Source: an uncultured Lachnospiraceae bacterium (GTDB lineage Bacteria; Bacillota; Clostridia; Lachnospirales; Lachnospiraceae). From it: DNA of 61,250 bases. Of this stretch, positions 65 to 43,962 are shown piece after piece. A program made the position numbers and the translations under genes. Each line of letters starts with the position of its first letter. The first letter of the stretch is position 1. The notes under the pieces were generated by a model. The model saw only the letters and a program-made list of their open reading frames with translations. It ran no database searches and was not told the origin of the DNA. The DNA is taken from contig CANRFJ010000019.1 in the NCBI GenBank assembly GCA_947629865.1, positions 1 to 61,250 on the forward strand, given 5' to 3'.

Positions 65-158
65 TTACAGGAGACTGAATGGAGATGTCGGCAGTGTGCA
101 GTTTTGAAGGTACAGAAGTATTTTCAAAGATATATTCAATGCGATATGATTCGCAGAT

Positions 159-232
159 GGCCTAGTGGCTCAGTTGGTTAGAGCGCCGCCCTGTCACGGC
201 GGAGGTCGTGGGTTCGAGTCCCATCTGGGTCG
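159..232 (+). tRNA. tRNA-Asp (GTC)
   Basis: Full cloverleaf with a 7-bp acceptor stem (159-165 with 225-231), anticodon GTC at 193-195 and a TTCGAGTC T-loop. CCA is not encoded. It is the first of seven tRNAs behind the 23S gene and probably belongs to the rrn transcript. Confidence 0.97.
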
Positions 233-319
233 TAAGGGAAGGATTATTTTTACAGATAAAATAATTTTTCTCAGTGAATTTAATATTGAGCGTTTGTATC
301 TATTGAGTTCATTTTGCAT

Positions 320-392
320 GGGGTCTTAGCTCAGCTGGGAGAGCATCTGCCTTACAAGCAGAGGGTCATAGGTTCGAGCCCTATAGGCCCCA
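320..392 (+). tRNA. tRNA-Val (TAC)
   Basis: Acceptor stem 320-326 pairs with 385-391, the anticodon is TAC in the CTTACAA loop, and the T-arm is canonical. CCA is not encoded. Confidence 0.97.
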
Positions 393-398
393 TTCATT

Positions 399-471
399 GC
401 CGACGTGGCTCAATTGGCAGAGCAGCTGATTTGTAATCAGCAGGTTACCGGTTCAAGTCCGGTCGTCGGCT
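399..471 (+). tRNA. tRNA-Thr (TGT)
   Basis: Perfect 7-bp acceptor stem GCCGACG/CGTCGGC (399-405 with 464-470) and anticodon TGT in the TTTGTAA loop. It sits only 6 bases after tRNA-Val, consistent with co-processing. Confidence 0.97.
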
Positions 472-494
472 TCATCAATAAGATTGATGCTTAT

Positions 495-576
495 GGGCGG
501 ATTCCCGAGTGGCCAAAGGGGGCAGACTGTAAATCTGTTAGCTACGCTTTCGAAGGTTCGAATCCTTCTCCGCCCA
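495..576 (+). tRNA. tRNA-Tyr (GTA)
   Basis: Class II tRNA with a long variable arm. Acceptor stem GGGCGGA/TCCGCCC (495-501 with 569-575) and anticodon GTA in the CTGTAAA loop. Confidence 0.97.
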
Positions 577-588
577 CTTAGAAATTAT

Positions 589-662
<74 letters not shown>

Positions 663-667
663 TTTAT

Positions 668-740
<73 letters not shown>

Positions 741-747
741 TTTTTAT

Positions 748-774
748 AAAAGGAACTATAGCAGTTCCTTTTTT
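748..774 (+). terminator. Rho-independent terminator after tRNA-Phe
   Basis: Stem AAAGGAACT (748-756) pairs with AGTTCCTTT (763-771) and runs into a T tract. It lies between tRNA-Phe and tRNA-Lys, so tRNA-Lys needs read-through or its own promoter. Confidence 0.8.
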
Positions 775-776
775 AC

Positions 777-849
777 GGGGCATTAGCTCAGGTGGTAGAG
801 CACTTGACTTTTAATCAAGTTGTCCGGGGTTCGAGTCCCCGATGCCTCA
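777..849 (+). tRNA. tRNA-Lys (TTT)
   Basis: Acceptor stem 777-783 with 842-848 and anticodon TTT in the CTTTTAA loop. It stands between two terminator hairpins. Confidence 0.97.
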
Positions 850-998: not shown

Positions 999-2159
999 AT
1001 GCTTATAACCAATGGAAAAATTTTTACCATGGCGGGACAGACTTACGAGAACGGCTATGTCCATATCGAGGGAGGAAAAATCCGCGCCGTGGGCGATATG
1101 GCAGAAGCGCCGGAGGAAGCGGGCCCTGCGCTGGATGCAGGCGGCGCCTGGGTTATGCCGGGACTGATTGACGCCCATTGCCATGTGGGGATAACCGAAG
1201 AAAAATGGGGCATGGTGGGAGAGGACTGCAATGAGCGAACCTGCCCGCTGACGCCGCATCTTCGGGCGTTAGATGCGGTAAATCCCATGGACGCCGCGTT
1301 TCATGATGCGGTGATGGCGGGAATTACATCTCTGATGACAGGGCCCGGCAGCTCCAATGTGGTGGGAGGGCAGTCCCTGTTTATGAAAGTACAGGGCCGC
1401 TGCATGGACAATATGGTAGTGAAGGCGCCGGCGGCCATGAAGATAGCCTTTGGGGAAAATCCCAAAAAGGATTACGGTGAAAACGGAAATACGCCTGGCA
1501 GCCGGATGGCCATTGCGGGACTGCTGCGGGAGGAGCTGCAGAAGGCCCGACGGTATCAGTTAAAAAAGGAAAAGGGGGAGATTGCTCCGGAAGACGAGGA
1601 TTTCCGCATGGAGTGCTGGCTTCCGGTATTCCGGAGGGAAATTCCGCTGAAGGCGCATGTGCACCGGGCGGACGATATCCTGACGGCGATACGCATTGCA
1701 AAGGAATTTCAGCTGGATATGACGCTCGACCACTGCACCGAGGGGCATCTGATCGCAGATGAAATTGCGGAGTCCGGATTTCCGGCAATCGTGGGGCCGG
1801 ATCTGAGCTCCCGCTCCAAAATAGAGATTAAAAATATGAGTTTTAAGACGGCCGGCGTGTTAGAGCGGGCAGGGGTAAAAACGGCAATCATGACCGACCA
1901 CCCCGTATCGCTTATACGCTATCTGCCGCTCTGCGCCGGTCTCAGCGTGAAACAGGGGCTCTCCCTCGAAGGCGGTCTTCGGGCTATCACAATCCATGCG
2001 GCGCAGATCTGTCGGGTAGCTGACAGGGTTGGCTCGCTTGAACCGGACAAAGACGCCGACATAGCTATTTTCAGCGGAAACCCAATGGAAACATTTACCA
2101 AGACGCTGTATACGATTATAGATGGAGAGATTGTGTATAGGGAGGGTGAACAGGGATAA
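999..2159 (+). CDS. amidohydrolase family metallo-hydrolase
   Basis: A 386-residue member of the cytoplasmic amidohydrolase superfamily (TIM-barrel metal-dependent hydrolases of the imidazolonepropionase/dihydroorotase type). Metal-site motifs are visible: H60-x-H62 in DAHCHVG, H220 and H222 in KAHVHRAD, H245 and H250 in LDHCTEGH, and D300 in MTDHP. The small flanking beta domain is formed by the N-terminal LITNGKI stretch and the C-terminal GSLEPDKDADIAIF stretch. An AGGAG at 987-991 supports the ATG at 999. The gene stands alone between the tRNA cluster and the GntR operon, so context does not reveal the substrate; hydrolysis of a cyclic amide is the family expectation only. Confidence 0.88.
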   Translation: MLITNGKIFTMAGQTYENGYVHIEGGKIRAVGDMAEAPEEAGPALDAGGAWVMPGLIDAHCHVGITEEKWGMVGEDCNERTCPLTPHLRALDAVNPMDAAFHDAVMAGITSLMTGPGSSNVVGGQSLFMKVQGRCMDNMVVKAPAAMKIAFGENPKKDYGENGNTPGSRMAIAGLLREELQKARRYQLKKEKGEIAPEDEDFRMECWLPVFRREIPLKAHVHRADDILTAIRIAKEFQLDMTLDHCTEGHLIADEIAESGFPAIVGPDLSSRSKIEIKNMSFKTAGVLERAGVKTAIMTDHPVSLIRYLPLCAGLSVKQGLSLEGGLRAITIHAAQICRVADRVGSLEPDKDADIAIFSGNPMETFTKTLYTIIDGEIVYREGEQG

Positions 2160-2173
2160 ATAAGAGACGCACT

Positions 2174-2220
2174 TATTAGAGGGCTGGCACTTTCTGCCGG
2201 CCCTCAACTGCCCTCTAATA
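2174..2220 (+). other. mutually exclusive hairpins downstream of the amidohydrolase
   Basis: GAGGGCTGGC (2179-2188) can pair with GCCGGCCCTC (2196-2205). The overlapping TATTAGAGGGC (2174-2184) is instead perfectly complementary to GCCCTCTAATA (2210-2220). The same GAGGGC is used in both, so the two structures exclude each other. Confidence 0.55.
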
Positions 2221-2227
2221 CATAGCA

Positions 2228-2250
2228 GCGGCGTTCCGGCCGCCTTTTTT
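2228..2250 (+). terminator. probable terminator before the GntR operon
   Basis: Short stem GCGGC (2228-2232) with GCCGC (2239-2243), followed by C and six T residues. The stem is only 5 bp, so strength is uncertain. Confidence 0.5.
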
Positions 2251-2270
2251 AATATAACTGTAAGAAACGG

Positions 2271-2302
2271 TTGACAACTGATATATACTGTTATATACTG
2301 TT
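2271..2302 (+). promoter_or_regulatory. promoter and direct-repeat operator of the GntR operon
   Basis: Perfect -35 TTGACA (2271-2276), 17-base spacer, and -10 TATACT (2294-2299). A perfect tandem duplication of ATATACTGTT (2283-2292 and 2293-2302) covers the spacer and -10. The repeat sits exactly one helical turn apart, which makes it a likely binding site for the GntR repressor encoded 54 bases downstream. Confidence 0.75.
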
Positions 2303-2355
2303 TATAACCTGGGTTGATTAAACATGGGAGGAGACCTCCCGGAAATGGAGAAAAT

Positions 2356-2733
2356 ATGCGCATTATAGTAAACCATTCATCAATGACGCCCATTTATGAG
2401 CAGATTATGGAACAGATAAAGGCAGGAATTATGAGCGGAGAGCTGCTGGAGAATATGGTTCTTCCCTCTGTGCGTGCGCTGTCGAAGGAGTTAAGAATAA
2501 GCGCCCTCACGGTCAAGAAGGCCTATGACGCCTTGGAGGAGGAGGGCTTTGCCGTTACAGTCCACGGAAAGGGAACCTATGTGGCGGCCACGAACCGGAA
2601 GGCGCTGCGGGAGGAGCGATATCGGGAGGTGGAGAGAGAGATGGAAGGGGTAATCGCAAAGGCCGGAAGATACGGTCTTTCCGCTGAAGAAATCCGCAGT
2701 CTCTTTGAAATTCTGATGGAGGAAAGAGAATGA
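2356..2733 (+). CDS. GntR family transcriptional regulator, YtrA-like
   Basis: A 125-residue DNA-binding repressor of the short GntR (YtrA) type. The N-terminal winged helix-turn-helix is clear (PIYEQIMEQIKAGIMSGEL, then LPSVRALSKEL and the TVKKAYDALEEEGF recognition helix), ending in the HGKGTYV wing. The C-terminal tail is only about 50 residues, with no large ligand domain, as in regulators that control a linked ABC transporter. The start at 2356 was chosen because GGAG lies at 2345-2348; an in-frame ATG at 2314 would add 14 poorly conserved residues. The stop overlaps the ATPase start (ATGA), so translation is coupled. It probably represses its own operon. Confidence 0.93.
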   Translation: MRIIVNHSSMTPIYEQIMEQIKAGIMSGELLENMVLPSVRALSKELRISALTVKKAYDALEEEGFAVTVHGKGTYVAATNRKALREERYREVEREMEGVIAKAGRYGLSAEEIRSLFEILMEERE

Positions 2734-3581
2734 TAAAAGTAGAAAATCTGAAAAAGAAGTATGATAAATTTACCCTGGACTGCTCGCTGGAGGTGCCGTC
2801 GGGCAGAATCAGCGGTCTGATCGGCGCCAATGGAGCGGGGAAAAGCACCACTTTTAAGGCTATTCTCGGATTGATCCGCAGGGACGGCGGCAGCATTGAG
2901 TTTCTGGGGAAGAAGACGGAGCAGATTACGGCGGAGGACAGGCAGCGTCTGGGAGTAGTCATGTCCGATTCCGGATTCAGCGCCTATCTGACGGCAAAGG
3001 ACGTCGCCATTATATTGAAAGCCATGTATAAACGCCAGGACAACGAAAAGTTTTTTGCCTGGTGCGAGCAGTTTGGCCTCCCGCTGGACAAAAAGATCCG
3101 GAAATTTTCCACGGGAATGAAGGCGAAGTTGAAATTGATTACCGCGCTGAGCCACGAGGCGGAGGTGCTGATCCTCGATGAGCCGACGGCGGGACTGGAC
3201 GTGATGGGGAGAGAGGAGATTCTCTCTCTGATGCGGGATTATATGGCGGAAGATGAGAACCGCACCATTCTTATCAGCTCCCATATCTCCACGGATCTGG
3301 AAGAACTCTGTGATGATTTTTACATGATTCACGAGGGGAGGATTCTGCTGCACGAGGACACAGATGTACTTCTGAGCAGGTACGCCCTTCTCAAGGCAGA
3401 TGCAGAGCAGTTTGAAAAACTGGATAAGAAGTATCTGCTGCGATACAGAGAAGAACCGTACGGCTACAGTGTGCTGACAGACCAGCGCGATTTCTATCGG
3501 GAGAACTATCCGGAACTGGTGACAGAGAAGGCCGGCCTGGATACGCTTATCCGGATGATGACAGGAGGGACGGAAATATGA
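2730..3581 (+). CDS. ABC transporter ATP-binding protein (GntR-linked)
   Basis: A 283-residue ATPase that would power the permease encoded next. Walker A GANGAGKST spans residues 32-40, the signature is the divergent STGMK instead of LSGGQ, and Walker B with the D-loop is LILDEPTAGLD. The switch histidine is in ISSHIS. The roughly 70-residue C-terminal extension after the nucleotide-binding domain is usual for YtrB/CcmA-like subunits of ABC-2 systems. It overlaps the regulator upstream and the permease downstream by 4 bases each. The substrate is not evident; relatives work in cell-envelope stress or antibiotic resistance. Confidence 0.92.
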   Translation: MIKVENLKKKYDKFTLDCSLEVPSGRISGLIGANGAGKSTTFKAILGLIRRDGGSIEFLGKKTEQITAEDRQRLGVVMSDSGFSAYLTAKDVAIILKAMYKRQDNEKFFAWCEQFGLPLDKKIRKFSTGMKAKLKLITALSHEAEVLILDEPTAGLDVMGREEILSLMRDYMAEDENRTILISSHISTDLEELCDDFYMIHEGRILLHEDTDVLLSRYALLKADAEQFEKLDKKYLLRYREEPYGYSVLTDQRDFYRENYPELVTEKAGLDTLIRMMTGGTEI

Positions 3582-34373: not shown

Positions 34374-35903
34374 TTAATCCTCGCTGTATGTGCTTACCGC
34401 TTCAAATTCCTCCACAATCGAGGCGTCCGGAGCCTTCGTACACAGGCTGACGACAACGATGCAGATGAGGCTGATAAAGAAGCCGAGGAGCAGGGAGTAA
34501 ATGCCGGTTACTGTATACAGCGTCTGTCCGCCGACAAGAGGGAGATAGTCCCAGATAATGACGAACAGGCCACCGGATATGATACCGGACACGGCGCCCG
34601 GAAGGTTAGTGCGCTTCCAGAACAGGGAGCATACGACCAGCGGGCCGAAGGCGGAGCCGAGGCCGGCCCAGGCGTCGGATACCAGATTCATGATACTGCT
34701 CTCCGGATCCCAGGCGATGAAGAAGGCTAACAGAGCCACGACCACTACGGTAATCCGGCTGATGTTCAGCACCTTTTTGTCGTCCGCATCCGGATTTAAG
34801 ATATTCTTATAGATATCCTTGGAAGCGGAGGAGGCGCAGACTAAGAGCTGGGAATCCGCCGTAGACATGATGGCCGCCAGAATACCGCACAGGAACAGAC
34901 CGGCGATAAACGGAAGGGCAAAGTCCACGGTAAAGAGCTGCTGGATCATGGAGATAAAGACCGTCTCCGTAGAGCTGTCGGTGAGTACGTCCTGTAGGAA
35001 GGCCCGACCGACAACGCCGATGACGCAGGCGGCAAATAAGGAGATAGCCACCCATACAATGGCAATGATGCTGGATTTTTTCAATTCCTTTTCACTCTTG
35101 ACCGCCATGAAACGGACTAAGATGTGGGGCATTCCGCAATAGCCAAGGCCCCAGGCCACCTGAGAGAGTATATCAATCAGGGAATAGGGCTTGCCGCCGT
35201 TGGAGAACAGGCTCATATAGTCGCCGGCATTTACCACGTCATGGCTGAGCAGGGCGGTGGAAAAATCTCCGTTTATGAGACTGTAGGCGAGAATCGGCAC
35301 AATCATCAGGGCAATCAGCATCAGAGTACCCTGTATAAAGTCGGTGGTGCACACAGCCAGGAATCCTCCTAAGAAGGTGTAAATCAGAATAACCGCAGCG
35401 CCAATTGCCAGGGCGAGGTGGTAATCAATTCCGAATACGGTATTAAACAGTTTTCCGCCGGAAGCCAGCGCAGAGGCGGTATATACCAGGAAAAATATCA
35501 CAATCACGATCGACGAGATACCTAAAAGGATCTTTTTGCGGTCGTGATAACGGTTTTCAAAAAACTCCGGCAGTGTCAGAGAGTTATTGGCTACAATCGT
35601 ATAGCGGCGGAGCCGTTTGGAGATGATGAGCCAGTTGAGAACTGTTCCGATAAAGAGGCCGATGGCAATCCAGGCCTGGCCGGTACCCAGTGCATAGACG
35701 GAACCGGGAAGTCCCATCAGAAGCCAGCCGCTCATGTCGGAAGCCTGCGCAGACAGAGCCGCTACCCAGCTGTTGAGGCCGCGGCCGCCGAGGAAATAAT
35801 CCTCTGTGCTTTTTGTTTTTTTCATGGAAAAAATTCCAATGCCAATCATCAGCAGGAGATAAAAGGCAAAGGCAGCTAAAATAGCAATCGTTGTTGTTGA
35901 CAT
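34374..35903 (-). CDS. putP: sodium/proline symporter
   Basis: A 509-residue sodium:solute symporter with about thirteen transmembrane helices. PutP hallmarks are DYFLGGRGLNSWVAALSAQASDMSGWLLMGLPG near the N-terminus, the RLRRYTIVANNSLTLPEFFENRY loop, and AIMSTADSQLLVCASS in helix 8 with the sodium-site serine/threonine. ATG 35903 is chosen because GGAGG lies 6 bases upstream; ORF codons further out lack a site. It imports proline with sodium. It borders the AT-rich island. Confidence 0.93.
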   Translation of the reverse strand: MSTTTIAILAAFAFYLLLMIGIGIFSMKKTKSTEDYFLGGRGLNSWVAALSAQASDMSGWLLMGLPGSVYALGTGQAWIAIGLFIGTVLNWLIISKRLRRYTIVANNSLTLPEFFENRYHDRKKILLGISSIVIVIFFLVYTASALASGGKLFNTVFGIDYHLALAIGAAVILIYTFLGGFLAVCTTDFIQGTLMLIALMIVPILAYSLINGDFSTALLSHDVVNAGDYMSLFSNGGKPYSLIDILSQVAWGLGYCGMPHILVRFMAVKSEKELKKSSIIAIVWVAISLFAACVIGVVGRAFLQDVLTDSSTETVFISMIQQLFTVDFALPFIAGLFLCGILAAIMSTADSQLLVCASSASKDIYKNILNPDADDKKVLNISRITVVVVALLAFFIAWDPESSIMNLVSDAWAGLGSAFGPLVVCSLFWKRTNLPGAVSGIISGGLFVIIWDYLPLVGGQTLYTVTGIYSLLLGFFISLICIVVVSLCTKAPDASIVEEFEAVSTYSED

Positions 35904-36169
35904 AATATCCTCCATTCTTATAGGTGATTGTAAAGTATACCCAAAAAACATGGTATTACATTAACCTCTAATATACCATAATCCGGCTGCTCTGGCAAGT
36001 AAAGGAAGGATTTATGCTCTTTTCTGCTTGTAGATTTATGCTTTTTTTGAAACAGCGATGGGATACCCGGATATTTCAAATGATACAATATCACTGAAAA
36101 AATCATTGGGCATCACTCACCGGTATTTGCACCTCTTTCATACGGTCGCAAAATTATCCACTGGCCAGC

Positions 36170-36859
36170 CTATGCGGGATTAAGTATATTTCCATCCCAA
36201 ATTTCTATTTTTCGTTCGCAATTCGCTACGACATTTTTATCATGTGTTACAACCAGAATCGTCTGTCCTAATTCTTGTTGCAGCTGAATCAACAATTCCA
36301 TTACCTCTTTCCCATTTTTTTCATCCAAATTCCCTGTCGGTTCATCGCACAGGAGGAGTTTGGGGGAATGTATGATTGCTCGCGCGATTGCAACTCGTTG
36401 CTTTTGTCCGCCGCTTAATTCGCCTGGATAATGAGAGAGCCGTGTCTGTAGATGGAGTTTGTCTACAATGTATTCAAAAAAGGCCATATCTGTTTTCAAA
36501 TGGTTTATAGTCATTGGTAATAAAATATTCTCTTTCGCCGTTAACTCCGGAATCAATTCAAAATTTTGAAATACAAACCCGACATTTTTTTTGCGATAAT
36601 CCGCCAGTTCGCGGTCAGAGGCTGTACAAAGATTTTTAACCTCGTTTTCCATTTGATAATAAAGGATTTTCCCAGAAGTCGCATGATCCATCCCGCCAAT
36701 CAAATGGAGGAGAGTGGATTTTCCACTTCCGCTCGTTCCAATTACCGCCACAGATTCTTTTTTGTACAAGTTGAAACTAACATCATTTAATGCGAGTACC
36801 TTTGTACTCCCACTTCCATAAGTTTTAGTTAATCCACATATATTTAATAAGATTTCCAT
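36170..36859 (-). CDS. ABC transporter ATP-binding protein of the AT-rich island
   Basis: A 229-residue ATPase of the MacB/LolD/FtsE class. Walker [11 protein letters not shown]-loop [20 protein letters not shown], signature LSGGQKQR, Walker [12 protein letters not shown] and H-loop VVTHD are all intact. It pairs with the 932-residue FtsX-type permease whose gene ends 19 bases upstream. Such pairs couple ATP hydrolysis to extracytoplasmic conformational work, for example peptide expulsion or immunity. It is the last gene of the LytTR-controlled unit. Its codons are more AT-rich than those of flanking genes. Confidence 0.94.
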
Positions 36860-36878
36860 GTCATTTTCCCCCTTTTTA

Positions 36879-39677
36879 TTAATACCGGTTTATTTGCATG
36901 ATATCTACTAAAGATTTTTTCTTCAGTGGATTTGTAATCAATATCACCGAAATACCTACCAGTAGGGATGTCAATAAAATGATAGTCAAATAAATAGGTA
37001 CAAAATGGTGCTCAAATATATGATATTGATAAGGAAAAATCTTTGCCAGCCCCGTCACATCAAAGTCAATCCCGTCATATTTCTGTCTGTATTTGACGCA
37101 TACAAAATCAAAACACTTTGCGGGAATCCACGCAATGAGTGATATAAATAATATGCCTTTGATAAAGTATAGTATAATGCGAAAACGCAATTTTTGTAAT
37201 GACAGTCCCATACACCTAACTATTCCAATATTTTTGCTTTTTAGGTGAATGGTCCGGTGGATAGAATTAATAATGGTACTTTCTCCAATCAGTAAGAGCA
37301 GAATAATGAGTAATGCTAAAACCCCCCAATATGAGACTCTGCTATCACGCATATCTTTTTGGATATCATAGGTATTAACTGTGGTAAGATCATCGCAATT
37401 GCCCAATATCTCATGCCAGTTTGCCAAAAATTCAGTGTTCTCATCAGAACTGTTTAATTTGATGCCGAGAAGTGTTGCATTATGATCCGGAAGGCCCCAC
37501 TTGGTAAATGCATTTTCCCCACATACAAAGTTAAAATTATTTTCCCCAACTAAACTGTCACATAGGTAATAATTCGACAATTCAAATTCTTTTAGATTTA
37601 CGATAGCACCGACAATGGCAAAATAATCTCTACGTTTTCCCAGTGCATATCCATCTGTTTTTTCGCCATAATAATCATAAGTGAAAGAGGGTGGAAGATT
37701 ATCTGGCACACTGCCGGATGAAAAATCATAATTTTCAATTTCTGGCTCTGTTATGACTACATCGGACATTTGAATTTTGTCTCCCACATGAAAGGGAAGC
37801 GGATCTTCCGTGGCAGTTACAATTAAAATTTCCCGTCCTTCATTCAGAGCGGCCATATCTATATGACCTGTCTGGACAAAAGGCGCTAATTTTTTTAACT
37901 GGCTACGGTTTACTCCTACTGTTGCAATATTAAATAGTTCCTCGTTTTTTTTATATCCTTGTGCTTGCAGTGTTTTCTCATAGAGTTCAGACAAGCCGCT
38001 TGTATTATCTATATTATTCTTCAAATTAGAGTCATATAAAGCTTGTTGGAGTTTTTTGTTACTATTTGTTAAAAGTAGTTTTGTACTTTTGGCCTGAATA
38101 CTATAGTTTACGTTCTCTACATCCGGCATACTTTCTATTTGTTTGATTTTTTCTATCGGAATTCCGCCTGAATGGCGGTTTGACTGCCCTGCTGCGCATG
38201 TGCTGATTTCAAAATCCTTTTCTGCCAGATAATCAATATCCCCAAGCTCATACTCATCTAGTGATGCCCGGATTATTTCATATTCCTGGGATGTCCGTTC
38301 CAAAAAATACAGAATACTAAAAAAAGCAGATGACATAATAATAAAAATAGATAAGAAGATACAGATAATTCCTGATTTTTCGGAAAAAAAGATTTTTTTA
38401 ATCGTCCGATTTCCCGATGTTTGAACAGATATGCGCAGATGCCGAAAATGTTTAACGGACGGATTTAACATATCATCTTTCCAGTTTATAAGTACAAGTA
38501 TAACAGAACAAATTGCAGTTATTCCACATATAAGAACCGGGAACACAAAAGGATTAAGTGTAATTTTAGCAATTAGGGGATCCACTGTTAAAACCGGAAT
38601 CAATTCGATGTGCAAAAAATTCGTGCCTATGGCATAGATAAGCACATAAAAAGCTGTGCCTGCTACAACACCAATTCCCAGCCCGGCCAGGACAATAACT
38701 AATACCTCACAAAGCACAGTAGTTTCCGCTTTCTTTTTTGTCAACCCTATGCAACGGTACAGATTCATCTGTGTTTTTCTTTCATTCAACACTATCCATA
38801 AATTTGAAATAACAGATATAAATACCACAATTGCCACTATAATAGAGAACAGTGGAATCAAAATAGTGGAATCAAAATCTTTTAATGTAGATTCAGTCAT
38901 GTGCGCGATGCCTTCATATGACAATTCTTCGTAGGTATCCACATTTAGCATCATCTGTTGCGCCATATAGTACACTGGAAGATTAAAACATTCCTTGCCG
39001 TCTTTTATTATTCTATCCGAAATATCATCAACGGAATATCCTGCCCTTTCTCTGGCAAGCAAACAAAATGTACCTAAATTTTTATCTTGAAAATATTCAT
39101 TGTAAAAAAACACTTCCGGTACGGATAATTCAAGGTCGGGATCTTGAAAACTTCTTTCGACTTCTATTGTTTTTAGTATTCCCGAAATTCTGAAGACTTT
39201 TTTATCTACCTGTTTGTGATTTTTATCGTAAATTGACAACTCTACATTTGTTCCGACTTCCGGTGTAGCGCCCATCGCTTCCAGCGTTTTTCTGGACGCT
39301 ACAATTTCATCCGGATTCTGCGGATAGTCTCCTTCACGACAAGGATAATGATATAATTCCCTTCCAGTTTCATCTAAAGTTCCCGCTATAAATGAATTGT
39401 TGGTTTTTCCCTTACATTCCCCCCCAATTCCAAGCGCACCAATTTTTTCAAATTCATCGAAATGTTCATACTTTTCATAATCTTCCTGCGAAATCTGTGG
39501 AATGAGAAAATTATAAGCGCCCCATGAATCCAGCAAGTTTTCGTACTTTAATAAAGTGGCCGTCCGGGAGAAAAAAATTGCACACATCAGTCCACTTACA
39601 CCTAAAACAAGTGAAAGTTCCAGAGAAAACAATCGTCTTTTATGTTTGAACCAATATTTTGCCACCACTTTGTACAT
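36879..39677 (-). CDS. large FtsX-type ABC permease (932 residues)
   Basis: A 932-residue permease with two FtsX-like units. The first helix is at residues 12-35, a large extracellular domain follows (about 40-275), and three helices lie near 280-400. A second anchor (IICIFLSIFIIMSSAFFSILY, about 440-465) leads into another extracellular domain (about 470-780), then three C-terminal helices. This ten-helix shape is shared by MacB-type and bacteriocin-associated immunity permeases. It partners the downstream ATPase. The gene lies immediately after the two small secreted proteins, which may be its cargo or the toxins it counters. Confidence 0.9.
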   Translation of the reverse strand: MYKVVAKYWFKHKRRLFSLELSLVLGVSGLMCAIFFSRTATLLKYENLLDSWGAYNFLIPQISQEDYEKYEHFDEFEKIGALGIGGECKGKTNNSFIAGTLDETGRELYHYPCREGDYPQNPDEIVASRKTLEAMGATPEVGTNVELSIYDKNHKQVDKKVFRISGILKTIEVERSFQDPDLELSVPEVFFYNEYFQDKNLGTFCLLARERAGYSVDDISDRIIKDGKECFNLPVYYMAQQMMLNVDTYEELSYEGIAHMTESTLKDFDSTILIPLFSIIVAIVVFISVISNLWIVLNERKTQMNLYRCIGLTKKKAETTVLCEVLVIVLAGLGIGVVAGTAFYVLIYAIGTNFLHIELIPVLTVDPLIAKITLNPFVFPVLICGITAICSVILVLINWKDDMLNPSVKHFRHLRISVQTSGNRTIKKIFFSEKSGIICIFLSIFIIMSSAFFSILYFLERTSQEYEIIRASLDEYELGDIDYLAEKDFEISTCAAGQSNRHSGGIPIEKIKQIESMPDVENVNYSIQAKSTKLLLTNSNKKLQQALYDSNLKNNIDNTSGLSELYEKTLQAQGYKKNEELFNIATVGVNRSQLKKLAPFVQTGHIDMAALNEGREILIVTATEDPLPFHVGDKIQMSDVVITEPEIENYDFSSGSVPDNLPPSFTYDYYGEKTDGYALGKRRDYFAIVGAIVNLKEFELSNYYLCDSLVGENNFNFVCGENAFTKWGLPDHNATLLGIKLNSSDENTEFLANWHEILGNCDDLTTVNTYDIQKDMRDSRVSYWGVLALLIILLLLIGESTIINSIHRTIHLKSKNIGIVRCMGLSLQKLRFRIILYFIKGILFISLIAWIPAKCFDFVCVKYRQKYDGIDFDVTGLAKIFPYQYHIFEHHFVPIYLTIILLTSLLVGISVILITNPLKKKSLVDIMQINRY

Positions 39678-39692
39678 GTTGTTTTATCCCTC

Positions 39693-40061
39693 TTATTCTC
39701 TTTCGTATAGTAAATTTCCTGTAACCCGGCCACTCACTGCTGCTATGCTGGTTGTATAACTGACATTTTTCTTTAAGAAAACTGTCATTGGAGAACGTGA
39801 AGTATGAAAAGGAAAAGTTTCTATTTTACTATAAGAATTGCTTCCCGCTACCCATACTTTTGCACCACTTGTACCACTGGCAGGTCTGGTATTTAATTTC
39901 ATAGTTGAATTTGTACTTTTTGTTCTTGTTACAGAAAAAAGTGCTCTAAATGTTGTACCCACATCATATGAATAATTTTTAGATGTTGCTGCCGAAACAA
40001 TTACAAAACTCAAACTTGAAACTAATATACACACTAAGGCAATATTTAATATTTTTCGCAT
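39693..40061 (-). CDS. small secreted protein, paralogue 2
   Basis: A 122-residue exported protein. A signal peptide (hydrophobic core IALVCILVSSLSFVIV) probably ends at VSA|AT. The mature part of about 97 residues shares a core with the neighbour at 40087: LNTRP..GTSG.K, WVAGSN, ETFPFHTSR..MTV and a KKN...T.IAA.SG..TG.L tail. It is rich in S, T, K and aromatics, with no cysteine in the mature part, suggesting a beta-sheet protein. Length, secretion and the linked permease/ATPase recall lactococcin 972-type bacteriocins, but the sequence match is weak. It ends 16 bases before the permease gene. Confidence 0.78.
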   Translation of the reverse strand: MRKILNIALVCILVSSLSFVIVSAATSKNYSYDVGTTFRALFSVTRTKSTNSTMKLNTRPASGTSGAKVWVAGSNSYSKIETFPFHTSRSPMTVFLKKNVSYTTSIAAVSGRVTGNLLYERE

Positions 40062-40086
40062 ATAGATACTCCTTTCTATTTAGTAA

Positions 40087-40473
40087 CTATATAGTTACTT
40101 TTGTATGTAGTTTTCCTGTTGCTGTACCTGAAATAGCAGCAATGTGCGTTATATATGTTATGTTCTTTTTCATTTTTATTGTCATTGCAGCACGACTTGT
40201 ATGATATGGGAACGTTTCTGTCTGGCTTTTGCCATTGCTCCCTGCCACCCATATTTTTACACCACTTGTGCCTGTGGTTGGTCTTGTATTCAAACTTAAT
40301 ACAGCCCCCGATTCCTTACATTTGAGCGAGTGCATTGCTATATAAGCTGTTTTTACGTTATAATCTTTATAACTATCTTCTAAGGTTTTTCCAAATGAAA
40401 CCGTGCTGACTGAGAACACAAAAATTAAACAGATAAACATTTTTATTACATGTGATTTACGATTTGATTTCAT
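40087..40473 (-). CDS. small secreted protein, paralogue 1
   Basis: A 128-residue exported protein. The hydrophobic core MFICLIFVFSVSTVSF ends at a likely cleavage VSFG|KT. The mature core is closely related to the next gene: LNTRPTTGTSGVKIWVAGSN, ETFPYHTSRAAMTIKMKKN, then IAAISGTATGKL. Differences concentrate in the first 40 mature residues, which here include two cysteine-free basic stretches and C-K. It is the first gene behind the promoter at 40650-40678 and its upstream repeats. AGGAGGAAAAAAAT precedes the ATG. Function is unknown; bacteriocin or signal-type peptide is an inference from context. Confidence 0.78.
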   Translation of the reverse strand: MKSNRKSHVIKMFICLIFVFSVSTVSFGKTLEDSYKDYNVKTAYIAMHSLKCKESGAVLSLNTRPTTGTSGVKIWVAGSNGKSQTETFPYHTSRAAMTIKMKKNITYITHIAAISGTATGKLHTKVTI

Positions 40474-40649
40474 ATTTTTTTCCTCCTGTAATTAAATAAG
40501 GTATAGCTGGTCTTTGCCGCTCTTTTATTATGAGTAGCCTTTGGGATGTTCGGTTCATCATGCAGTTTTCAAGGTGCGGCAATCCATGCTTGTCTTTTTT
40601 TATCTGAAATGCCTTTTGGCAATTCATTCAGAAGTTTTTGTTTTACTTA

Positions 40650-40678
40650 ATAATAATTAAACCTTACTGAAAAATCAA
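40650..40678 (-). promoter_or_regulatory. promoter of the secreted-protein/ABC operon
   Basis: On the minus strand, -35 TTGATT (40678-40673), a 17-base spacer and -10 TATTAT (40655-40650) point to the small secreted-protein genes, leaving a leader of about 170 bases. Confidence 0.62.
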
Positions 40679-40690
40679 TATAAGATACAA

Positions 40691-40719
40691 AATCAGGCAA
40701 AAAGTTACATAATCGGGCA
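40691..40719 (-). promoter_or_regulatory. direct-repeat operator, LytTR type
   Basis: Two 9-bp copies, AATCGGGCA (40711-40719) and AATCAGGCA (40691-40699) on the plus strand (TGCCCGATT and TGCCTGATT on the minus), are separated by 11 bases, a period of 20. The nearer copy ends 12 bases before the -35. This is how AgrA/PlnC-type LytTR regulators bind, and the LytTR gene lies directly upstream. Binding is inference. Confidence 0.6.
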
Positions 40720-40745
40720 TCACTTTTCTTTAATAAATTTCTGGA

Positions 40746-41459
40746 TTAGTCCCTGTATTGCAGGAAACACTCTTTTACAGTTCTGTACCTGCTTTTTGCC
40801 ACTGGTAGTACCATTCCATTTGATAGTGCTAAGGAATATCGTCCTATCTTGTCAATATATTGTAAGTTCACCAGAAAACTCTGGTGTGTTCTCACAAAAT
40901 CGTACAAAGCCAACTTGTCAGCCAATTCAGAAATTTTACCATACATATATAATGTCTCGCCCTTTCTTTCGAAGCAAAGTTTATGGGCGTTGCTTTCAAT
41001 GTAAAGGAGTTCGTTCAATGTAATCCTCCTCTTACCGTCTATAAACTTAAACGACATCTTTGATCCCTTTCTTTGTTGTCTCTCCAGGATGGCATGAATA
41101 CATTCTGGTAACATTCTGTTCAAATTATCCTTTAAAATATAGCGAACAGCATTTAGCCGATAACCTTCCGGCGCATAATCCGTTATAGAGGAAATAAAAA
41201 CAATATCAATCTTTTGATTCCTTTTCCTGATTGTATATGCGGTTTTAATACCATTCATTCCGGTCGCATCAATATCAAGGAAAATAACGTCGAATGTATA
41301 AAGCTGTAGTTCGTCTTTGCAAAACTCCATTTCATTTTGAAAGAACTCAACATGACATGTAATTTCTTTTTTCTGTGAGTATCTTTCGATTTGTCCCTTT
41401 ATGCACCTTCTGGAATATTCCTCATTACTGCAAACAGCTATTCGCAATGGGAAACTCAT
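40746..41459 (-). CDS. orphan LytTR response regulator with altered acidic pocket
   Basis: A 237-residue regulator: receiver domain at about 1-120 and LytTR domain from about 130 (FKFIDGKRRITLNELLYIES through FVRTHQSFLVNLQYI). The phosphoacceptor aspartate is kept (VIFLDIDATGMNG) and so is the lysine (RYILKDN). The metal-binding acidic pair usually written DD or ED is C-S-N-E here, so phosphorylation may be weak or unnecessary. No histidine kinase gene is in the island. ATG 41459 follows AGGGG by about 6 bases. It sits directly upstream of the direct-repeat operator and is presumably its activator. Confidence 0.88.
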   Translation of the reverse strand: MSFPLRIAVCSNEEYSRRCIKGQIERYSQKKEITCHVEFFQNEMEFCKDELQLYTFDVIFLDIDATGMNGIKTAYTIRKRNQKIDIVFISSITDYAPEGYRLNAVRYILKDNLNRMLPECIHAILERQQRKGSKMSFKFIDGKRRITLNELLYIESNAHKLCFERKGETLYMYGKISELADKLALYDFVRTHQSFLVNLQYIDKIGRYSLALSNGMVLPVAKSRYRTVKECFLQYRD

Positions 41460-41694
41460 ATGTATCACCCCTCTACCCTCAACAACGTGTTAAAACAGAG
41501 ATTTGTTGCACTAACTGGAAAAGAATTTAAAATTCTTATTTCCGCGGCCAAAGACCATGCCAAAACTTTCTTGAATAAGCGGCGGGAAAGTAGTAAAATA
41601 TCTCCCAGAGAGAGTGTGTTAAAAATACATTTTTGGCACAGACATTCCTGCGGAGGAGCAGGTGCAGACAACTTTGTCATCAGGAGGGAGATTT

Positions 41695-42639
41695 GTGAAA
41701 GGGAAGATAGTATCTGTCTTATTAGTTCTGGCGGTGTTGATATCATCGACGGGCCGGTCCGGTAATATTGCCAGTGCGTTCATCGCCAACAAAGACGGCT
41801 GTATTGATTTTGAAGATGCATTCTATGATGTATCGAATATGTTCGAGCCTTTATATATCAATGTTGACGGTTTGAGCAGTGAAAGAAAAATACATTTATA
41901 TAATAATAATGAAAAAATTGACGACGGCGATCTGACCATTATAGAAAATAAAATATCCACAGACAGTGATTGTATTAAAATTTTAAATATAGATAAAAAC
42001 GGTAATTTTCTGGGAGACAACTGGTACAGAATCGTTGCTGTAAAGCCAGGGGAAGCAAATATGACCTACAGCGTAAAGGTAAAGCATAAAAAAGAAATAG
42101 CAGATAAAAGTATCAATGTAAAGATTTATGTATTAAATCGCAGGCCTAACCGAAAAGATATAAAATTTTTAGTCTCAAATGAAATTACCGAAAAGGGAAA
42201 GAAGAAAATCTGTAAACTAAACTTTGATTATGATATTTTAAATGCTGAAACCTATGAATATTTTTTGGATTCGTATGGGAGCTTTACTTTTCTGAATAAA
42301 AAACATAAGAAACTCGGAAAAATATCCAATGTTTCGCTCAGAGATTTTTGCGAGTTAACGGAGATCCTATATACAAAGAAGGGGAATAAAAAATGGAACT
42401 ATGTAGACTATAAATGGCAGTTGAAATGTGCGGAAAAGAATGGAAAGAGGATAATTAAAAAGATAAAAAAATATGGAATGAAAATAAAATATGTGAGGAT
42501 AAATAATTTATATTTTAAGGATAAAGACAAAAAAACATCCATAAAAAAACATTATAAAAAGGCGTATAACTATTGGAAAAGGTTGAATTTTGTAAATAAA
42601 GTTTATTTTCATACGCCCATACGGCGGTGCTTAGAATAA
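41695..42639 (+). CDS. secreted lysine-rich protein of the AT-rich island
   Basis: A 314-residue protein I do not recognise. The N-terminus is a signal peptide (IVSVLLVLAVLISSTGRSGNIASA|FI). Residues about 30-140 look like a beta-sandwich ending in PGEANMTYSVKVKHKK, similar in style to bacterial Ig-like repeats. The last 170 residues are rich in K, N and Y, with no wall anchor (KKYGMKIKYVRINNLYFKDK). GTG 41695 follows AGGAGGG at 41682-41688. It is divergent from the LytTR gene and shares the AT-rich composition. It could be a surface or immunity protein of the same module. Confidence 0.75.
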   Translation: MKGKIVSVLLVLAVLISSTGRSGNIASAFIANKDGCIDFEDAFYDVSNMFEPLYINVDGLSSERKIHLYNNNEKIDDGDLTIIENKISTDSDCIKILNIDKNGNFLGDNWYRIVAVKPGEANMTYSVKVKHKKEIADKSINVKIYVLNRRPNRKDIKFLVSNEITEKGKKKICKLNFDYDILNAETYEYFLDSYGSFTFLNKKHKKLGKISNVSLRDFCELTEILYTKKGNKKWNYVDYKWQLKCAEKNGKRIIKKIKKYGMKIKYVRINNLYFKDKDKKTSIKKHYKKAYNYWKRLNFVNKVYFHTPIRRCLE

Positions 42640-42651
42640 GGGAGGGTTAAT

Positions 42652-43962
42652 ATGAATCACGGACGTTTCCCCGACATTATCGGGAAGAAGAAGCAGGGAT
42701 TGGCGCTGAGCGATGAGGAGATTCGGGATATGATTGCGGATTACACCGCAGGAAAGATACCCGATTATCAGATGTCGGCCATGCTTATGGCCATATGCTT
42801 TCGGGGACTGACAGATCGGGAACTGACTACCATGACTATGGCCATGAGGGATTCCGGCGAGGTGCTGGATCTGTCTGAAATTCCGGGCGTCAAGGTGGAT
42901 AAGCACTCCACAGGGGGTGTGGGAGATAAGGCCACCCTGATCGTGGGGCCCATGGTGGCGGCCTCCGGCGTGCCGGTGGCAAAGATGAGCGGCCGTGGGC
43001 TTGGATTTACGGGCGGGACAATCGACAAACTGGAATCCATACCGGGCTTTTGCGGGGAGATAAGCAATCGGGAATTTTTCCGGGCAGTCAGAAAAAACGG
43101 AATAAGCATCAAGGGGCAGACGGGCAATCTGGTTCCGGCGGATAAAAAGATGTATGCGCTCCGCGACGTCACTGGAACCGTGGACAGTATTCCCCTGATA
43201 GCAGCTTCCATCATGAGCAAGAAGCTGGCGGCGGGAGGCGATAAGATTGTGCTGGACGTGACGACCGGCAGCGGGGCGCTGATCGGAGATCTTGAAGGTT
43301 CGGTGGAGCTGGCCCGGCGCATGGTGGCAATCGGCAACGGAGCCGGACGGGAGACCGTGGCGATGATCACTAGTATGGAGGAGCCGCTCGGCTTTGCTGT
43401 GGGGAACCGCCTGGAGATACGGGAGGTCGTGGAGACTTTGCGGGGCGGCGGGCCGGAGGATGTGCGGATTGTGTGCACGGCTCTTGCCGGAATGATGCTC
43501 TCGCTGGGGAAAGGAATCTCCTATGAGGAGGGAAAAGAGCAGGCGCTGGAGGCGCTTGTGAGCGGCCGGGCTTATGAGCGGTTTCTGGCAATGGTGGAGA
43601 CGCAGGGAGGCGATGTGTCCTGCATCGAATATCCGGAACGGCTCGCCATAGCGGAGATAAGCGGGGAATTGCTGGCGGAGGAGGACGGATATCTTGCCGG
43701 AGTGGACGCCGGAAGGATAGGCGCCGCGGCCGGAATCCTGGGCGCCGGACGTGAGACGAAGGAGAGCGAAATTGATGCCGGAGCCGGAATCGTGATGAAA
43801 AAGAAGGTGGGAGACAGGGTGCGCGCCGGAGAGCCGGTGGCTGTCCTGTATACATCGCAGGAGGAGCGGCTTGAGCGGGCGCTCGCACATCTCAGAGGGT
43901 GTTGTACGGTTGCCGGGGAGAAGCCGGAGCCGCTAAAATTAGTGGTGGATATTATCCGGTAA
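42652..43962 (+). CDS. pdp: pyrimidine-nucleoside phosphorylase
   Basis: A 436-residue homodimeric enzyme that splits thymidine/uridine with phosphate into base and (deoxy)ribose 1-phosphate. The family signature SGRGLGFTGGTIDKLES is at about residues 113-129, and DKHSTGGVGDKATLIVGP binds phosphate. The C-terminal pyrimidine-nucleoside phosphorylase domain (AGIVMKKKVGDRVRAGEPV) is complete. AGGGAGG precedes the ATG. It is the first gene of normal composition after the island. Confidence 0.96.
   Translation: MNHGRFPDIIGKKKQGLALSDEEIRDMIADYTAGKIPDYQMSAMLMAICFRGLTDRELTTMTMAMRDSGEVLDLSEIPGVKVDKHSTGGVGDKATLIVGPMVAASGVPVAKMSGRGLGFTGGTIDKLESIPGFCGEISNREFFRAVRKNGISIKGQTGNLVPADKKMYALRDVTGTVDSIPLIAASIMSKKLAAGGDKIVLDVTTGSGALIGDLEGSVELARRMVAIGNGAGRETVAMITSMEEPLGFAVGNRLEIREVVETLRGGGPEDVRIVCTALAGMMLSLGKGISYEEGKEQALEALVSGRAYERFLAMVETQGGDVSCIEYPERLAIAEISGELLAEEDGYLAGVDAGRIGAAAGILGAGRETKESEIDAGAGIVMKKKVGDRVRAGEPVAVLYTSQEERLERALAHLRGCCTVAGEKPEPLKLVVDIIR

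Follow-up and report, generated by a model that had tools for sequence, protein, structure and literature searches.

Mediterrocin of M. gnavus is an 89-aa bacteriocin with a predicted Sec leader and beta-fold, and its low-GC gene is clustered with those of a DUF1430 membrane protein and an ABC protein (PMC12345188). This mobile bacteriocin is an accepted member of the lactococcin-972 family, although it is only 18% identical to lactococcin 972 (PMC12345188). A ComE site is reported to drive the streptococcin B locus, which is lactococcin-972-like; according to the same source, no lactococcin-972 locus has had the function of its membrane protein or ATPase verified by experiment (PMC11796350). 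Type VII ABC transporters typically have a periplasmic partner and include YbbP, a single-chain duplicated permease with 10 transmembrane helices (PMC12646458). Some type VII systems protect against antimicrobial peptides or are encoded in bacteriocin loci: the MacB-type YknXYZ guards against an endogenous toxin, and AS-48EFGH is listed with possible bacteriocin export (PMC5985334).

Here we describe a 6.5-kb, AT-rich island of six genes (36170-42639) in the window, i.e., the whole 61,250-nt stretch of DNA analyzed, from an uncultured Lachnospiraceae bacterium. The island encodes two small secreted paralogs (A and B), a single-chain double-FtsX permease, an ABC ATPase, a response regulator, and a divergent secreted protein. 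The module is real, accessory, and recurring, and a published description of it was not found in the open-licence literature. With a probability of roughly 0.45, we favor the reading that A and B are LytTR-controlled, Sec-secreted antagonism proteins, accompanied by a type VII ABC transporter that would serve in self-protection. The question posed is whether a type VII machine protects the producer from its own secreted beta-protein.

The island as an accessory insertion

The GC content of the island is 0.356 and that of the remainder of the window is 0.528, while the 84 sliding windows of equal length clear of the island all gave values of 0.500-0.549. This bears out the AT-richness claimed in the original prediction, and all six of its genes were found where it had placed them. 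The insertion (35952-42651) lies between putP on the left (34374-35951) and a pyrimidine-nucleoside phosphorylase gene on the right (42652-43962), both named by sequence reading. The phosphorylase was detected at E ≤ 1e-100 in 37 of the 39 genomes of the host genus searched, the host's own included, and the stretch from putP to the phosphorylase gene was read in 10 of the 36 others, picked from the best-scoring matches. The two genes are direct neighbors in eight of these 10 same-genus genomes, with their aligned parts ~120-220 bp apart, and other cargo lies between them in the remaining two (~7.5 kb in G028 and ~3.7 kb in G031); A, B, the permease, and the ATPase had no match at this site in any of the 10. 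Because the flanks adjoin in eight genomes and enclose other cargo in two, the site is one of accessory-gene gain, and the island is an accessory insertion. Between the junctions (35901-36200 versus 42561-42700), the longest common direct word is 9 bases, and no inverted word of at least 9 bases was found.

The cargo of G028 at the same site (L057, 2901-9468) looks like a phage-defence island: read by eye, it encodes an AAA-type ATPase, a protein that resembles subtilisins and has the pattern HGT...GTSFASP, and a two-part methylase-like pair containing NPPY. That of G031 (L058, 5761-8625) starts with a LytTR-type regulator, 26% identical to that of the window, followed by three ORFs, two of them membrane-like by eye, and is devoid of ABC genes. 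Seven consecutive tRNA genes stand at the start of the window (158-849).

At the right end of the island, the divergent secreted protein is encoded on the forward strand (41695-42639) and has a signal-like segment. Its ORF runs from GTG 41662, and the likeliest start, judged by eye, is GTG 41695 behind AGGAGGG, which gives 314 rather than 325 residues; the gene itself had been foreseen correctly, and only its start had to be moved. The protein scored 25.6 bits against DUF5081, under the cut-off of 27, and had only two weak matches (E = 2e-4 and 4e-4) in 144 other genomes.

Secreted proteins A and B and the lactococcin-972 layout

Protein A (128 aa; 40087-40473, reverse strand) has a signal-like N-terminal sequence, and protein B (122 aa; 39693-40061, reverse strand) has a signal sequence that ends near ...VSA by eye, with a hydrophobic segment at residues 7-21. 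That they are small secreted paralogs, as had been claimed, agrees with these N-termini and with an identity of 43% across the alignment (46% across the local match). The gaps between the genes of A, B, the permease, and the ATPase are 25, 15, and 19 bp, so the four are likely one operon, and we infer from this spacing that they would be read as one transcript.

A homolog of A/B was found through the permease in the distant Lachnospiraceae bacterium UBA4292, in which the ORF directly before the permease gene (124 residues) has a signal-like sequence and contains TNTRPAAGTGGV...LFPYYT, and an ATPase gene comes after the permease gene. Against an HMM of A and B alone, this protein scored 22.8 bits and ranked first of 5001 sequences, of which 5000 were shuffles (best shuffle 15.4), and it was still first after removal of its signal peptide (21.6 versus 12.0 bits for the best shuffle). 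An NTRP protein, a permease, and an ATPase are thus found together, in the same order, in two distant loci. This trio of secreted protein, permease, and ATPase recurs, with two loci known, and the neighborhood check proposed in the original prediction came out in its favor. Secreted relatives lacking the ABC pair, which would have spoken against it, were not found, in what is a weak test with two A-like loci only. In UBA4292, no LytTR gene was seen beside the trio (ORF list, by eye), and a second NTRP protein was not found in the genome. N-T-R-P-x-x-G-T-x-G and F-P are conserved in all three proteins. FP[YF]HTSR..MT is present in both A and B but reads FPYYTGVSDLT in the UBA4292 homolog, so that the HTSR motif pointed out earlier is common to the paralogs and not kept beyond them. 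On the 3' side of the trio, UBA4292 (L022, 11609-18718) encodes two secreted proteins, one of 419 residues with NCNSYVW...IHSVKV and the other a C39-like peptidase (PF13529). Further downstream lie two genes of sigma-factor type, with an anti-sigma-like gene after each (by eye).

Neither A nor B reached any family of Pfam, NCBIfam, or PADLOC, not even lactococcin_972 or mediterrocin, and the pair would add a secreted-protein family missed by every family library tried. Sub-threshold rows in NCBIfam (EF0750_LPXTG, E = 0.033; mini-MOMP, E = 0.1) and seven in PHROGs (best E = 0.014, a virion structural protein) are taken as chance. Apart from chance matches, searches of 195, 397, and 126 partly overlapping genomes returned no A or B outside the host's own genome: weak matches in three genomes (E = 0.004-0.007) were dropped as chance and have stop codons in all three, weak partial matches in eight (E = 0.002-0.01) were dropped as chance without one-by-one inspection, and a weak match in one more was dropped as the antisense of an RND-type gene (by eye). 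Scans with query A1 (genome contigs and viral contigs), query A3 (viral contigs), and protein A (plasmids) gave nothing related; because the A1 scan of genome contigs missed the UBA4292 homolog, which is present in the same collection, absence there is weak evidence.

A cluster in G114 (L026, 4839-11809) combines an FtsX ABC pair with a BlaI-like regulator (by eye), a BlaR1/M56 peptidase, and two small secreted proteins. The C-terminal part of its M56 protein is similar (37-44%) to the two small secreted proteins of the cluster; the sensor looks as though it had its own version of the secreted domain. The G114 proteins resemble A and B by eye; homology between A/B and either the small proteins or the BlaR1-type C-terminal domain was rejected (hhalign E = 0.12), and in the ranking of 884 reported sequences by an HMM of the G114 proteins, A (48th), B (103rd), and the UBA4292 protein (820th) fell among shuffles.

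The AlphaFold2 model of mature A, computed from three sequences with the UBA4292 homolog included, confidently predicts an eight-stranded beta-sandwich (pLDDT 84.2) and supersedes a poor model from two sequences (pLDDT 63.7). Its best PDB matches, among the 50 listed, are mixed jelly-roll-like domains, in which toxin domains such as PirA and HA3 are mixed with many non-toxin domains, several lipid-, glycan-, or collagen-binding ones included, and no function is indicated. Lactococcin 972 is absent among these 50 matches, which are a re-ranking of Foldseek's own list only and hence exclude nothing. The counter-evidence named beforehand, a structure unlike small beta-sheet toxins, was not obtained, as the model shows a small, all-beta fold.

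The order of secreted protein, membrane protein, and ATPase is that of lactococcin-972-type loci, as had been pointed out, and occurs in both the window and UBA4292. Like lactococcin 972, mediterrocin, and streptococcin B, the module would combine a small unmodified secreted beta-protein bearing a signal-type leader with a large membrane protein and an ABC ATPase; it is of low GC and accessory, like mediterrocin, and its putative LytTR control resembles the ComE control of streptococcin B. Unlike those loci, it has two secreted paralogs, without detectable sequence relation to the family, an FtsX double permease as opposed to the DUF1430 protein, and an ATPase nearer LolD.

In its gene order the locus is built like lactococcin-972/mediterrocin loci, while membership in the family is not shown; the suggestion of membership failed with the sequence models of A/B, with DUF1430, and with TIGR03608 alike. 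A and B had no match to TIGR01653, mediterrocin NF052268, or Pfam at E ≤ 1, and aligning mediterrocin with a profile built from A, B, and the UBA4292 homolog gave nothing meaningful (hhalign E = 0.28). In a control, mature mediterrocin itself gave E = 0.0029 against TIGR01653, under the cut-off, and no Pfam family; because it escapes Pfam, the Pfam membership test is insensitive. We consider it very unlikely that this is a true but very diverged lactococcin-972 locus. The gene order, the signal-type leader, the predicted beta fold, the 18% identity of the accepted member mediterrocin (PMC12345188), and the failure of Pfam with mature mediterrocin would fit such a locus, but no TIGR01653 or mediterrocin-model match was obtained, the hhalign value is poor, FtsX stands in place of DUF1430, and the ATPase is under the TIGR03608 cut-off. 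The caution that this could be a different, undescribed system was the better half of the original interpretation.

The permease, the ATPase, and type VII ABC systems

The permease (36879-39677, reverse strand), anticipated as a 932-residue FtsX protein, was confirmed as such, with the correction that FtsX (PF02687; 50.1 bits, cut-off 25.5) covers two stretches. Pfam gave FtsX only and NCBIfam lolCE only, sub-threshold, and DUF1430 was not found in a search run without a DUF1430 positive control. By hydropathy, the window permease has nine hydrophobic segments and each of four relatives has eight, and all have two long parts between membrane segments that are taken as extracellular. A profile of the window permease and three relatives matched LolF, BceB, YbbP, and PsdB in the PDB at E = 4e-5 to 3e-4, with weaker rows that include chance matches such as histones. 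The ATPase (229 aa; 36170-36859, reverse strand; ABC_tran 114.5 bits) is of the LolD/MacB type. Its four best NCBIfam matches are LolD (two models), DevA, and MacB, all under their cut-offs; LolD, the best, scored 220.2 bits (cut-off 307.75), higher than TIGR03608 (185.8 bits, cut-off 254.85).

Judging from domain and layout, the permease belongs with type VII ABC systems: an FtsX permease domain and a MacB/LolD-like ATPase are present, and a long, presumably extracellular part after the first membrane segment is repeated in the single chain, according to hydropathy. The module shares an FtsX permease with long inter-segment parts and a LolD/MacB-like ATPase with YbbAP-TesA, MacB, LolCDE, FtsEX, and BceAB, and a possible extracytoplasmic partner with YbbAP-TesA and other type VII systems. 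It differs from them in that this partner would be a small beta-sandwich without a known catalytic family, in its LytTR regulator, and in the weak similarity of the permease profile (E = 4e-5 at best).

Full-length relatives of the permease were found in the host's own genome (C28, 27%), in a genome of the same family as the host (G078, 23%), and in UBA4292. Searches of 99, 397, and 250 partly overlapping genomes and one genome-contig scan gave no further full-length ones, with scoring limited to the two or three best candidates of each genome in the two larger genome sets, and none was found in viral contigs or plasmids. G033 and G114 gave partial matches only; the G033 permease was rejected as a general FtsX protein, with the ATPase gene preceding it and no secreted neighbor among ORFs of at least 90 aa. 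The C28 and UBA4292 permeases are 44% identical, and that of the window is 23-25% identical to each of the three others. In C28 (L018), an LRR-type lipoprotein gene precedes the permease gene and no A-like protein is present, and in G078 a short secreted-looking ORF without visible similarity occupies this position.

The variable protein before the permease bears on the main rival to our reading, which we regard as somewhat unlikely: A and B would be extracellular partners dedicated to a type VII ABC machine and working on the cell's own envelope, and conformational change of the permease would make them bind a lipid or wall precursor, move it, or present it, on the models of YbbAP with TesA and FtsEX with hydrolase partners. 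The typical pairing with a periplasmic partner and the single-chain duplication of YbbP (PMC12646458) argue for it, as do the two long inter-segment parts of the window permease, the lipid-, glycan-, or collagen-binding fold neighbors, and a signal-like ORF (by eye) directly 5' of the permease in four of four close loci (window, L018, L020, and L022), that of L020 being short and possibly broken. However, the 5' protein varies by locus (NTRP protein, LRR lipoprotein, unrelated short ORF), which would be odd for a structural partner; A and B are a tandem duplication in an accessory island; and the 10 transmembrane helices of YbbP (PMC12646458) contrast with eight hydrophobic segments per relative. 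Because the partner habit and the antimicrobial-guarding habit of type VII systems both fit, the antagonism and partner readings are not separable here.

Regulation and possible function

The regulator gene (40746-41459, reverse strand) encodes a REC-LytTR response regulator, both domains of which exceed the Pfam cut-offs (Response_reg 38.7 bits; LytTR 60.7 bits); its ORF opens at GTG 41468, and ATG 41459 behind AGAGGGG is the likelier start by eye. Its earlier description as an orphan LytTR regulator holds for the LytTR domain and for the lack of a histidine kinase among the six genes of the island, and is amended in that the protein is a complete response regulator. It lies 272 bp from gene A. 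LytTR regulators, of which ComE is one, use repeats spaced about two helical turns. A candidate site (40684-40719, reverse strand) consists of the direct repeats TGCCCGATTATGTAAC and TGCCTGATTTTGTATC, which are identical at 13 of 16 bases and 20 bp apart from start to start, and a promoter-like TTGATT-17-TATTAT (40678-40650) follows directly downstream, before A. Shuffles matched the repeat pair at spacings of 20-23 in 20 of 2000 cases, with length and spacing picked after the repeat was seen; the second-best match to the repeat consensus within the island was 12/16; and promoter-like sites are frequent in this sequence (37 found versus 26.6 expected). Control of the A-B-permease-ATPase operon by the regulator through these candidate repeats is suggestive only. 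REC and LytTR domains and candidate repeats about two helical turns apart before a secreted-protein operon recall AgrA/ComE-type response regulators, but the genes of the island include no cognate kinase or pheromone gene. The ComE site at streptococcin B (PMC11796350) is a precedent for the LytTR control that had been proposed for such a locus.

A response regulator adjoining an FtsX ABC pair, together with repeats that suggest its control of the operon, might also indicate a signaling or self-sensing loop, in which A and B would be secreted signals or decoys read via the ABC pair, which would inform the regulator in the manner of BceAB. We find this improbable, given that no histidine kinase is among the genes of the island, that A and B are predicted to be folded proteins of ~100 residues and not peptides, and that no regulator was seen beside the UBA4292 trio.

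Returning to antagonism, the island would be a horizontally acquired module in which the response regulator, once activated through its abundance or by a kinase whose gene lies elsewhere, would bind the direct repeats before A and switch the operon on. A and B would then be exported by Sec, lose their signal peptides, fold as small beta-sandwiches, and target the cell envelope of competing bacteria, perhaps as alternative versions or as a pair of partners. In this scheme, the double-FtsX permease with its ATPase would be the type VII machine that protects the producer, possibly by pulling A/B, or a molecule held by A/B, off its own membrane. The recurrence of the trio in UBA4292, the patchy low-GC accessory island, the tandem divergent paralogs, the lack of a catalytic family for A/B, their small all-beta predicted fold, and the type VII relatives of the permease point to antagonism. 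Against it we count that no family model ties A/B to any bacteriocin, that the related ABC pair of C28 (25% permease identity to that of the window) has an LRR lipoprotein and not an A-like protein, that the island has no separate small immunity gene, that the fold matches are mixed, and that no LytTR gene is beside the UBA4292 trio.

A wider reading, conceivable though doubtful, is that a Gram-positive type VII ABC core, consisting of a double-FtsX permease and a LolD-like ATPase, has a swappable 5' slot for secreted effectors; the lactococcin-972 layout would then have arisen more than once, from unrelated proteins, and A/B would be a new bacteriocin family. In the window the slot would hold two NTRP beta-sandwich proteins, in UBA4292 one, and in C28 an LRR lipoprotein. 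The same layout with unrelated secreted proteins and a recognizable type VII permease would make the roles of the lactococcin-972 membrane protein and ATPase testable.

In C28, two very similar LRR-type lipoproteins (L018, 2104-3276 and 8338-9576) flank the permease-ATPase pair. LRR_5 was found in the copy at 2104-3276, and a larger LRR-type protein (by eye) is next to it (101-1966).
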